DNA of 18,384 nt, taken from an archaeon. Lineage in GTDB: Archaea; Micrarchaeota; Micrarchaeia; Norongarragalinales; SBBD01. Shown here one piece after another: positions 3,317-6,603 of this stretch. Positions within the stretch are counted from its first letter, which is position 1. Each line of letters opens with the position of its first letter. The notes under the pieces are model-generated. The model searched no databases, was not told where the DNA came from, and was given only the letters and a program-made list of their open reading frames with translations. The stretch covers positions 1 to 18,384 of the forward strand of contig SBBD01000022.1 of the NCBI GenBank assembly GCA_005239845.1, in the 5' to 3' direction. A program made the position numbers and the translations under genes.

Positions 3317-3356
3317 TGCCTTCTCCCCTTCGCCTCCCACGCTTTAAGGGGCAGAT

Positions 3357-3370
3357 AGGTTTAAATACCT
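3357..3370. promoter_or_regulatory. Shared bidirectional TATA element
   Basis: AGGTTTAAATACCT has AGGT/ACCT arms around an AT core that reads TTTAAATA on plus and TATTTAAA on minus. It is 41 bases from the minus start at 3316 and 57 from the plus ATG at 3427. It is the only strong TATA box in this divergent gap. Confidence 0.55.
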
Positions 3371-3426
3371 AAAATCGCATAGTTTGCTTCGTCCGCTTGC
3401 GTTTTAACGAAAACGGTGATTTTTGC

Positions 3427-4411: not shown

Positions 4412-4423
4412 ACGGTGAGGGAG

Positions 4424-4678
4424 ATGGAGGACGTGGACGTTACAACATTGTCACCGAAAGGGCAAGTCGTCATACCCGACCGCATCCGCAAAAAGCGGAA
4501 GCTGCGGCCCGGAACCAAGTTCGCTGTCAGCTCCACGAAGGAACTCGTCATCTTCAAGCGAATCGAAGTTCCCAGCGCCTCCGAAATGCTCGAAGAAGTC
4601 CTGAAAGAAGGAAGCGCGCACGCGAAAAAACTTGGCATCCACAACGAAGGCGACGCGCTCAAACGCATGTTAAGGTAA
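4424..4678 (+). CDS. AbrB/MazE-family antitoxin
   Basis: 84 residues. The N-terminal half is a swapped-hairpin AbrB/SpoVT domain: VTTLSPKGQVVIPDRIRKK, then LRPGTKFAVSS and ELVIFKR. This domain dimerises and binds DNA. The C-terminal half is helical and charged (SASEMLEEVLKEGSAHAKKLG) and probably wraps the partner toxin. The PIN gene begins six bases after this stop, the classic layout of a type II toxin-antitoxin operon with the antitoxin first. A GTG at 4415 is in frame, but ATG 4424 has a GGTGAGG SD at good spacing and leads straight into the domain. Confidence 0.85.
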   Translation: MEDVDVTTLSPKGQVVIPDRIRKKRKLRPGTKFAVSSTKELVIFKRIEVPSASEMLEEVLKEGSAHAKKLGIHNEGDALKRMLR

Positions 4679-4684
4679 GCACGC

Positions 4685-5092
4685 ATGCTGCAAGCCGTCG
4701 TGGACACCAACGTGCTCGTCTCCGCCTTGCTCAGCGACGGCCCTTCCAGAAAAATCCTTCGGCTTGCGGCTTCCAAGGAACTCCTGCTGGTTTCAAGTCC
4801 TGAACTCATGAAGGAACTCGAGAAAGTCCTCAAGCGCGACTTCGAGTATTCGGAAGCCATGGTGCAAAACGTCGTCGACAGTCTTACAACTACCCTTGCC
4901 TTTGTCGAGCCCTCCTTCAAGCTCGAAGTCATTAAAAAAGATCCTACCGACAACAAGCTCCTTGAATGCGCCAAAGCTACCCACGCCGACTACCTCCTTT
5001 CCTACGACAAACACCTCTCCGAAATTCGGGAATATGAAAACACAAAAATCACGACTCCCGACAGCCTCTTGCGAAAACTAGGAAAAAGGTAA
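4685..5092 (+). CDS. PIN-domain ribonuclease toxin (COG1569-like)
   Basis: 135 residues, a single PIN domain. Acidic residues that would bind Mg or Mn: D7 in VVDTNVLVSALL, E44 in SPELMKELEKVL, D89 in DPTDNKLLECA, and D108 in YLLSYDKHL. This is the full set expected of an active PIN nuclease, which cleaves RNA single strands. The HADYLLSYDKHL segment is typical of the COG1569 subgroup. It follows the AbrB-type antitoxin by six bases and is surely co-transcribed. The role may be stress response or locus maintenance; target RNA cannot be read from sequence. The stop is followed by a run of A, giving the third copy of the GGTAAAAAAAAC motif. Confidence 0.85.
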   Translation: MLQAVVDTNVLVSALLSDGPSRKILRLAASKELLLVSSPELMKELEKVLKRDFEYSEAMVQNVVDSLTTTLAFVEPSFKLEVIKKDPTDNKLLECAKATHADYLLSYDKHLSEIREYENTKITTPDSLLRKLGKR

Positions 5093-5153: not shown

Positions 5154-5765
5154 CTAGGGGTTTTGGGGCGAAATTTTTTCTTCTGGAAAAGAAGACTCAG
5201 CGCCCTCTTCCTTCTTGTAGCCCCTAATCGACGCTTTCCTGCTCGTCTTCACGACGCGGTGCTCTAAGGCAAAGTTGGCGGAACGCTCTCCAAAGGCTTG
5301 TGCGCGCACCAAATCCAGTTCGTCCAACTGCTGCCGCAGCAATCCCTTGCGCTTCAAAGCAAGCGTGTTCAGCACGCGGGCGCCCTTGGCTTCCAGCAGG
5401 CGGGCGGCTTCCGCCAACGCCTTCTTTCGCGTCTCGAAACAGCAGAAAACCGCCGCCTTTTTTTCCTTCCAGTCGTTGCTTTCCATGAAATCGAAGGCCT
5501 TCCGGCTCTCGGAAAGCGACCCGGACTCGAAGCCGATCAGAACCAGCGAATAAGCGGAAAGGTCTGCTGGAATTTTTTCTTTCTTGCGCAAGCCTGCAAA
5601 CCAGGGATAGTTCTGCAAGCCCTTCTTTTCCCCCAAGTCCAGCAAGACGGCATCAACGCCTGCCTTCCGGCAGCCTTCCGCGATCGCGGAAGCCATTTGC
5701 TTGGCAAACCCTTCCGGGGAAGCAAAGACGACGAGGACTCGGGGAAGGGAAACGACGGGCTCCAT
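5154..5765 (-). CDS. Flavodoxin-like fold protein
   Basis: 203 residues. The start PRVLVVFASPEGFAKQMASAIAEGCRKAGVDAVLLDL matches the flavodoxin first strand, phosphate-binding loop and helix, although the loop is S-P-E-G-F and not the usual T-x-T-G-x-T. A second strand YSLVLIGFESGSLSESRKAFDFME fits the loop that packs on the flavin ring. A third, KKAAVFCCFETRKKALAEAARLL, fits the C-terminal strand and helix. The last 45 residues are charged and extend the domain. It probably binds FMN but the loop change leaves doubt. The frame extends to 5807; I prefer ATG 5765 because a TTTTTATACG box lies 25-32 bases upstream, giving a leaderless start. It is divergent from the riboflavin kinase/regulator gene. 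Confidence 0.65.
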   Translation of the reverse strand: MEPVVSLPRVLVVFASPEGFAKQMASAIAEGCRKAGVDAVLLDLGEKKGLQNYPWFAGLRKKEKIPADLSAYSLVLIGFESGSLSESRKAFDFMESNDWKEKKAAVFCCFETRKKALAEAARLLEAKGARVLNTLALKRKGLLRQQLDELDLVRAQAFGERSANFALEHRVVKTSRKASIRGYKKEEGAESSFPEEKISPQNP

Positions 5766-5785
5766 GGAAAGGTTTGAGAAAGCCC

Positions 5786-5803
5786 AACGTATAAAAACGT
5801 AGC
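5786..5803. repeat. Flavin-locus repeat, copy 1, over the flavodoxin-like gene TATA box
   Basis: AACGTATAAAAACGTAGC, identical to the copy at 5857-5874. It contains two ACGT tetramers flanking ATAAAA. On the minus strand it supplies TTTTTATA at the right distance from the start at 5765. GAAAGC precedes it by two bases (5778-5783). Candidate operator plus core promoter. Confidence 0.6.
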
Positions 5804-5856
5804 GCACTTACCCACCGAAAGCAGGCGAGCCGGGCTTTCCAGCCTGAAAGCATCCG

Positions 5857-5874
5857 AACGTATAAAAACGTAGC
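5857..5874. repeat. Flavin-locus repeat, copy 2, over the riboflavin kinase gene TATA box
   Basis: Second exact copy of AACGTATAAAAACGTAGC, 71 bases from the first. On the plus strand TATAAAAA lies about 35-40 bases before the TTG start at 5902. GAAAGC precedes it by five bases (5846-5851) and forms a perfect inverted repeat with GCTTTC at 5834-5839. Confidence 0.6.
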
Positions 5875-5901: not shown

Positions 5902-6603
5902 TTGAAGGACTTGCACGAAAACCTATTGGGGGCGCTCCTGAAACTGGCGTCAAAAGGAGCGTTGCACCAAATGATTAACTTGAGTACGGCTTCGCTCGGC
6001 AAGGAAATGCAGGTGTCGCAGCAAACGGTTTCCCGTTGGCTCTCCCAACTAGCGACAGAAAGATACGTGGAAAGGCGGTTCAACCGCATTCGCTTGACTC
6101 CGAAGGCGAGGGAGTTTTTGGAAGGCGTTTCGGGCGACCTTCAGGCCGTATTGCAGGAAAAGCACGAGTTCAAGCTGCAGGGACGTGTGGTTGCCGGCTT
6201 GCAGGAAGGACAGTACTATTTGATGCAACCCGAATACCAGGCCCAGTTGCACAAGCTGTTGGGCTATAACGTGTTTCCGGGAACGCTTAACTTGCAGCTT
6301 TCGGAAGCAAGCGGAGGAGAAGCGGAAAGAAAGGGCGTGGAAGGGAGGAAGCAGCTTGCCGGCATCCCTGGAATCGAACTGAAACCATTCAAGAAGGAGG
6401 GAAGAGAGTTCGGGGGGGCCATGCTATATCCCTGCCACATCGTGAAACTGGCCAAACAAACCATGACAGAGGGAGCCATCATTGTTCCCTATAAGACGCA
6501 TCACGGCCCCAACATCCTGGAACTCGTGGCACCTTACTCGCTGCGGGACAAGCTCATGCTCAAGAACGGCGATGAAGTGGAAGTCAGAGTGCTCGGCAAA
6601 TAA
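5902..6603 (+). CDS. ribK: CTP-dependent riboflavin kinase with N-terminal HTH regulator domain (RbkR-like)
   Basis: 233 residues in two parts. Residues 5-75 form a winged HTH (LGKEMQVSQQTVSRWLSQLATERYVER is the recognition helix region). Residues 90-233 are the archaeal riboflavin kinase (DUF120) domain: GRVVAGLQEGQYYL for the nucleotide, FPGTLNLQL (127-133) with the metal/phosphate-binding Thr-Asn, EGAIIVPYKTHHGPNILELVAP, and LRDKLMLKNGDEVEV. It makes FMN from riboflavin using CTP. Fused archaeal proteins of this type (RbkR) also regulate riboflavin genes, so this one may do both jobs. Start is TTG 5902, with GGAAGGG upstream; the next ATG would cut the HTH. Two exact repeats over TATA boxes sit in the divergent gap. 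Confidence 0.9.
   Translation: MKDLHENLLGALLKLASKGALHQMINLSTASLGKEMQVSQQTVSRWLSQLATERYVERRFNRIRLTPKAREFLEGVSGDLQAVLQEKHEFKLQGRVVAGLQEGQYYLMQPEYQAQLHKLLGYNVFPGTLNLQLSEASGGEAERKGVEGRKQLAGIPGIELKPFKKEGREFGGAMLYPCHIVKLAKQTMTEGAIIVPYKTHHGPNILELVAPYSLRDKLMLKNGDEVEVRVLGK

Follow-up and report, generated by a model that had tools for sequence, protein, structure and literature searches.

Our data indicate that riboflavin uptake, too, is very probably under an RbkR-type operator in the micrarchaeal lineage from which the DNA analysed here (hereafter the window, the whole stretch of 18,384 nucleotides) comes, and this is the firmest result of our comparison of sequences. Within the window, one identical 18-mer is present at both promoters between divergent genes for a flavodoxin-like protein and an RbkR-like protein. 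A tentative reading, which we put somewhat below an even chance, is that the two copies form a weak autoregulatory RbkR site that overlaps the TATA box of each gene.

RbkR is reportedly a bifunctional riboflavin kinase and regulator of archaea, with operators that vary between archaeal lineages. Its DNA binding is stimulated by CTP and relieved by FMN. We derived the operator of the present lineage separately; it reads TTACTC-N6-GAGTAA and often consists of two dyads 18 bp apart. When 20 rib-gene loci were scored, the two best sites lay exactly 18 bp apart in nine of them (seven distinct regions from six genomes). The tandem pattern, with up to two mismatches, occurred at 10 places in 9 of the 29 genomes of the order; when the pattern was reversed as a control, there were five strand-matches, spread over four genomes. 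Eight of the 10 places are 40-97 bp upstream of ribB or ribH matches (G001, G007, G008, G009, G010, G023 and, twice, G025), and the other two, in G002 and G028, are upstream of a gene for an ECF-like membrane protein that is followed by an ABC ATPase gene. Neither ribB nor ribH was found in G002 (90% complete) or G028 (79% complete). By comparative genomics this is an RbkR-type regulon, in which genes of riboflavin biosynthesis or uptake share an operator.

The window's own genome (G000) contains a counterpart of the G002 membrane protein, 61% identical, at the following locus:

L218 (G000:C149:17805-20609), 1433-1468 and 1501-2301: RbkR-type operator in tandem form, followed by genes for an ECF-like S component and an ABC ATPase

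Upstream of this S-component gene stands TTACTCTTTTTTGCGTAT, then, 18 bp on, the weaker TTACTCCTTTCTGATAAG, and then a TATA box. In G028, where the ATPase was identified by eye, the membrane protein aligns with that of L218 (37% over 100 amino acids) and gave no match to PF12822, and the pair of genes is directly 3' of rbkR. No counterpart was found in G001, the third genome of the family, which has ribB and ribH. Across the 29 genomes of the order, an S-component profile matched strongly in six (G000, G002, G005, G011, G012 and G028), in none of which ribB or ribH was found; a seventh match, in G026, reached only 3.3e-4, and that genome has ribB and gave no rbkR match. The 18 rbkR-positive genomes, several of them incomplete, divide into 11 with ribB or ribH, six with the S component, one with neither and none with both (7/18564 = 0.0004 by hand, uncorrected for relatedness or incompleteness). 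With a matrix built from 14 sites before rib genes, none of them from the window's family or from rbkR promoters, each of the six S-component genes, that of L218 included, was preceded by a site at P 0.0005, the lowest value that 2000 shuffles allow.

The protein encoded at L218 is a probable riboflavin ECF importer, with its substrate assigned from regulation and gene distribution only. It scores 24.6 bits against PF12822 and another ECF-like protein scores 17.2, both below the cut-off of 30.7; the ECF-like membrane protein had no match among PDB sequences, and the model of the L218 S component has a pLDDT of 53.3. In bacterial RibU-type ECF riboflavin importers, an ABC ATPase follows the membrane S component, and regulation is shared with flavin genes. 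The ECF-like membrane protein of this lineage resembles them in being followed by an ABC ATPase gene and in its candidate co-regulation with flavin genes, and differs from them in scoring under the PF12822 cut-off and in its lack of a match to a PDB sequence.

The arrangement resembles the known archaeal RbkR systems in the order of HTH and CTP-dependent kinase, in a regulon for riboflavin supply and in palindromic promoter sites. It differs from them in its place in a Micrarchaeota lineage, in sites that are often two dyads exactly 18 bp apart, in an ECF-like importer that replaces the rib genes in the regulon, in a flavodoxin-like gene that shares the rbkR intergenic region, and in an 18-mer at the rbkR/flavodoxin promoter that matches the lineage's own operator poorly. 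An enzyme that also regulates its own pathway is a rare kind of regulator, and the present analysis extends it to a small-genome DPANN lineage. The content of the regulon appears to track vitamin supply, with biosynthesis genes where these were found and the probable importer where they were not. The operator consensus makes simple binding tests possible, and it draws attention to a probable riboflavin importer in archaea that are likely to obtain the vitamin from others. The original RbkR study (Rodionova et al. 2017, NAR 45:3785, gkw1331) is cited in passages of PMC10746257, PMC8305020 and PMC7693651. One paper treats RbkR control of the Pyrococcus riboflavin operon as predicted, a second lists Haloferax rbkR as a gene regulator and enzyme, and the passages of a third, which cites the original study, are silent on RbkR itself. 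The titles and abstract beginnings of literature on Micrarchaeota and riboflavin, and on DPANN regulons, gave no description of the present regulon.

The features of the window that bear on the 18-mer are as follows:

5154-5765, minus strand: gene for a flavodoxin-like protein of 203 amino acids (PF00258, 25.4 bits, cut-off 25)
5785-5802, no strand: candidate weak RbkR operator, dyad CAACGT-N6-ACGTAG, flavodoxin-like promoter
5786-5803, plus strand: 18-mer, copy 1, covering the flavodoxin-like gene's TATA-like core
5856-5873, no strand: candidate weak RbkR operator, dyad GAACGT-N6-ACGTAG, rbkR-like promoter
5857-5874, plus strand: 18-mer, copy 2, covering the rbkR-like gene's TATA-like core
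5902-6603, plus strand: gene for an RbkR-like protein of 233 amino acids from a TTG start (PF01982, 112.1 bits, cut-off 25)

The preliminary description had named the two divergent genes as flavodoxin-like and riboflavin kinase/regulator, and profile, alignment and fold matches agree. The product of 5902-6603 is identified by its matches as an RbkR-like protein that joins an HTH to a CTP-dependent riboflavin kinase, with the winged HTH at about residues 9-69 and the kinase at residues 96-230. Residues 20-230, with the HTH covered, align with the riboflavin kinase 3cta (E 1.4e-18), and the comparison with 2p3m/MJ0056 gave E 7.1e-20. The best NCBI match is NF010762 (winged HTH/riboflavin kinase), at 151.3 bits over both domains and under the equivalog cut-off of 279. 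The HTH scores slightly below the cut-offs of PF13545 (25.2 against 27) and MarR (22.0 against 24.6), and a 15-row alignment takes it in. No in-frame start lies upstream of the TTG at 5902, with which the rbkR start of the relative G002 aligns; the public version of the protein (P0011, 210 amino acids) begins later, within the HTH.

Modelling indicates that the product of 5154-5765 has a flavodoxin fold. Its AlphaFold model has a pLDDT of 82.6, and Foldseek returned 156 matches at E<=0.001, the top ones of which include FprA, the archaeal flavodoxin 5wid and WrbA, at query TM values of about 0.5-0.6. Entries for certain human receptors are likewise near the top, presumably by reason of a flavodoxin fusion partner. 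In the alignment an SPEGF stretch falls, as judged by eye, where the loop is expected, and the protein would bind FMN. The flavodoxin-like gene and rbkR adjoin in all three genomes of the family (divergent in G000 and G002, tandem in G001); the order has 15 further genomes with rbkR, and in these the flanks of the gene, roughly 1.5 kb, gave no flavodoxin-like match. At 4415-5092 of the window, a weak MazE/AbrB-like gene (below cut-off) precedes a PIN-domain gene, and the two look like a VapBC-type toxin-antitoxin pair.

We found that AACGTATAAAAACGTAGC occurs twice on the plus strand, at 5786-5803 and 5857-5874, 71 bases from start to start, as had been described. A search of the window with up to three mismatches gave these two matches, both perfect, where a mean of 0.01 was expected, and none of 200 shuffles contained two matches. 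The repeat unit is longer than the 18-mer, with 20 of 21 bases identical between 5783-5803 and 5854-5874; that these are kept while the flanks differ argues for a constraint beyond the TATA box. Each copy covers one TATA-like core, in line with the earlier assignment of each to the TATA position of one gene. Measured to the dyad centres, copy 1 lies 28.5 nt from the ATG of the flavodoxin-like gene (5765, minus strand) and copy 2 lies 37.5 nt from the kinase TTG (5902), distances that plausibly fit archaeal TATA spacing. Given that both copies are on one strand and the genes diverge, each gene reads the opposite orientation of the 18-mer, which suits a near-palindromic or bidirectional element. 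The hexamer GAAAGC, which the preliminary description had linked to the repeat, does precede both copies, but at unequal spacing (2 and 5 nt), and it is a common word, with 38 occurrences in the window against 23.9 expected and four in the flavodoxin/rbkR intergenic region (both strands); it is therefore poor evidence of a compound site.

The 18-mer is rare in its own genome, as judged from an assembly of 1.19 Mb in 195 contigs that is 70% complete. A search of this assembly with the 15-base core and up to two mismatches gave only the two window copies and one palindrome at an unrelated promoter of another contig (C8:696-711). This palindrome, around ACGTATTAATACGTA at L003:695-712, precedes genes that by eye resemble a small toxin-antitoxin operon in which one protein is AbrB-like. 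Further copies had been expected before rib or transporter genes, and none was found before flavin genes or transporters in this 70%-complete assembly.

Conservation of the 18-mer is partial within the family. In G002, which belongs to another genus, one copy with 16 of 18 identical bases stands at the orthologous position, in an intergenic region of 56 bp that runs from the flavodoxin ATG at L006:1435 to the first rbkR start, at 1492 (an ATG at 1501 would make it 65 bp), and in G001 no copy was found. A merged 18-mer pattern, run with up to three mismatches on the three genomes, gave no excess over its reversed control (7 against 7 in G000, 3 against 34 in G001 and 12 against 13 in G002). Nine loci from these 22 places were inspected; one is the G002 flavodoxin/rbkR region and the other eight, by eye, have no flavin gene. 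A strict single-site pattern gave two places in the three genomes (0, 1 and 1, against 7, 18 and 13 per strand in the reversed control); that of G001 is between two divergent genes, one of them PPDK-like, and that of G002 is L216.

The preliminary description took the 18-mer for the RbkR operator, and this is supported in part. The dyad spacing of the 18-mer is that of the lineage operator, it is the best place in its intergenic region and an RbkR-type regulon exists in the genome; its match to the operator is weak, the lineage operator has a different sequence and the G002 copy is ordinary. With a 12-site matrix, copies 1 and 2 rank 1 and 5 among the 18367 positions of the window and take the top two places in the region between the genes (P 0.0035 and 0.0005). 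With the 16 tandem sites from outside the family they rank 3 and 9 (23 and 65 for the 6+6 arms alone), and with all 22 tandem sites 6 and 10 (40 and 88 for the arms alone). On the arms alone both copies score under all 16 training sites, and on the full tandem matrix copy 1 is above one of the 16 and copy 2 above none. The P value of the intergenic maximum was 0.0035 for the 12-site matrix, 0.0033 for a 3-site matrix and 0.057 for the rib-gene sites, the most independent set; the matrices were chosen after the data had been seen.

For comparison, a further 174 promoters were taken from stretches of the G000 and G002 genomes and scored. Copy 1 was matched or beaten by four of them with the tandem matrix (two of these being the same site in both directions) and by none with the rbkR-type and all-26 matrices, while copy 2 was reached by 21, 10 or 10, depending on the matrix. 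The conserved copy of G002 was reached by 59 to 87 of the 174, around the median, so the feature conserved there is not operator likeness. A separate strong operator-like site, TTACACAAAAATGAGTGA, lies at the G002 rbkR start (L006:1478-1495), and none of the 174 promoters reaches it. G001 has no clear site before the flavodoxin-like gene (P 0.095) or rbkR (P 0.25). These scores give the window copies some likeness to the operator and the G002 copy none.

Dyads before rbkR were compared in 80 loci from a contig collection, among the matches listed of 568 confirmed with an alignment query (a single-protein query of the same collection returned no RbkR relatives), and in 17 other genomes of the order and 30 loci of the class, partly from the same genomes. 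An exact TGAG-N6-CTCA precedes rbkR in at least 16 loci (16 of the 80 among the matches listed), with 0.15 expected from shuffles; these loci (L113-L174) are mostly Methanophagales and Methanosarcinales by record title. Like the window, they have a dyad with a 6-bp spacer near the rbkR start. The half-site differs, and so does the recognition helix, which is S[VIL]QTAARR or SSKTAAR-like in these loci and SQQTVSRW in the window, such that operator and helix may have changed together.

An exact CTAC-N10-GTAG was found before rbkR at gap 10 only, of gaps 4-15 tried. Among the matches listed it occurs in 2 of 45 loci with the SQQ helix and 0 of 35 others; it occurs in 1 of 18 family and order loci and 0 of 30 class loci. 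With one mismatch there were 6 of 45 SQQ loci among the matches listed, a small excess against a shuffle mean of 2.8 and a largest value of 7. The 3-site dyad matrix was built from L015, L100 and L102, and these training loci were left out of the counts. At P<=0.01 it detected 7 of 36 rbkR promoters of the family, order and class, with 0.36 expected, and the seven include those of the window (P 0.0033) and G002 (P 0.0066); among the matches listed it detected 3 of the 42 remaining SQQ loci and 1 of the 35 with a different helix. At P<=0.05 the counts were 10 of 36 in the family, order and class and, among the matches listed, 6 of 42 and 9 of 35, and the last of these indicates that the lax level fails to separate the groups.

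The reading of the 18-mer as a specific protein site, with RbkR as the only linked candidate, is slightly ahead of that of a core-promoter element. RbkR would sit on CAACGT-N6-ACGTAG and on its twin GAACGT-N6-ACGTAG, hiding the TATA box from TBP/TFB at both genes, and the supply of kinase and one FMN-using protein would thereby be tied to flavin status. The strong tandem site before the importer gene would shut uptake first, and the kinase/flavodoxin pair would be held more loosely. We infer the binding of RbkR to the 18-mer and to the other sites, as well as repression, the order of affinities and the response to ligand. In its full form this would be a regulon of two tiers, in which strong tandem operators shut the importer and two weak TATA-overlapping copies tune the kinase/regulator and the FMN-using flavodoxin in an archaeon that is probably riboflavin-dependent; as a whole it is rather doubtful. 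If true, it would couple the supply of FMN to the pool of a single acceptor protein.

The 18-mer may instead be a bidirectional core-promoter element to which RbkR does not bind, that is, a TATA box flanked on either side by TFB-contacting bases and duplicated to serve each gene. We consider this quite possible, short of an even chance. Each copy is at TATA distance from one start, and in G002 a single copy, with TTTATATA, serves the whole 56-bp divergent region and is unlike an RbkR site. With a promoter model learned from 127 regions of G002, both window copies rate well as ordinary promoters, at the 91st percentile in the flavodoxin direction and the 72nd in the rbkR direction (a model from 49 G000 regions reached no clear TATA box), and a second divergent promoter of the window, at 3356-3371, has a dyad, TAGGT-TTAAAT-ACCTA, over its TATA box. 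However, the A-rich upstream element of the model is missing, by eye, before the flavodoxin-side TATA box, and the operator likeness of the window copies is left unexplained. Dyads over AT cores also lack clear enrichment in 33 divergent promoters (5/5 pairs in 1 and 4/5 pairs in 10, against 0.5 and 6.2 in shuffles and 1 and 12 in 42 one-way promoters). In the region 3356-3382, which has counterparts in G002 and G001, an operator-like 18-mer at 3365 tops the window with the tandem matrix.

It is unlikely that a regulator other than RbkR, for example a redox-responsive one, uses the 18-mer as its operator and acts on the flavodoxin-like and kinase genes together. The dyad ACGT-N6-ACGT, the presence of the identical pair at no other place found in its own assembly and a weak likeness to the RbkR site would all suit such a regulator, as would the similar palindrome in the C8 promoter region, but rbkR is the only regulator gene linked to the 18-mer and adjoins it in both genomes in which the 18-mer was found. 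A recent tandem duplication without function past the TATA box, its identity a leftover and GAAAGC before both copies perhaps a remnant, is very improbable, because 20 of 21 bases are unchanged between flanks that have diverged and 16 of 18 persist in another genus of the family.
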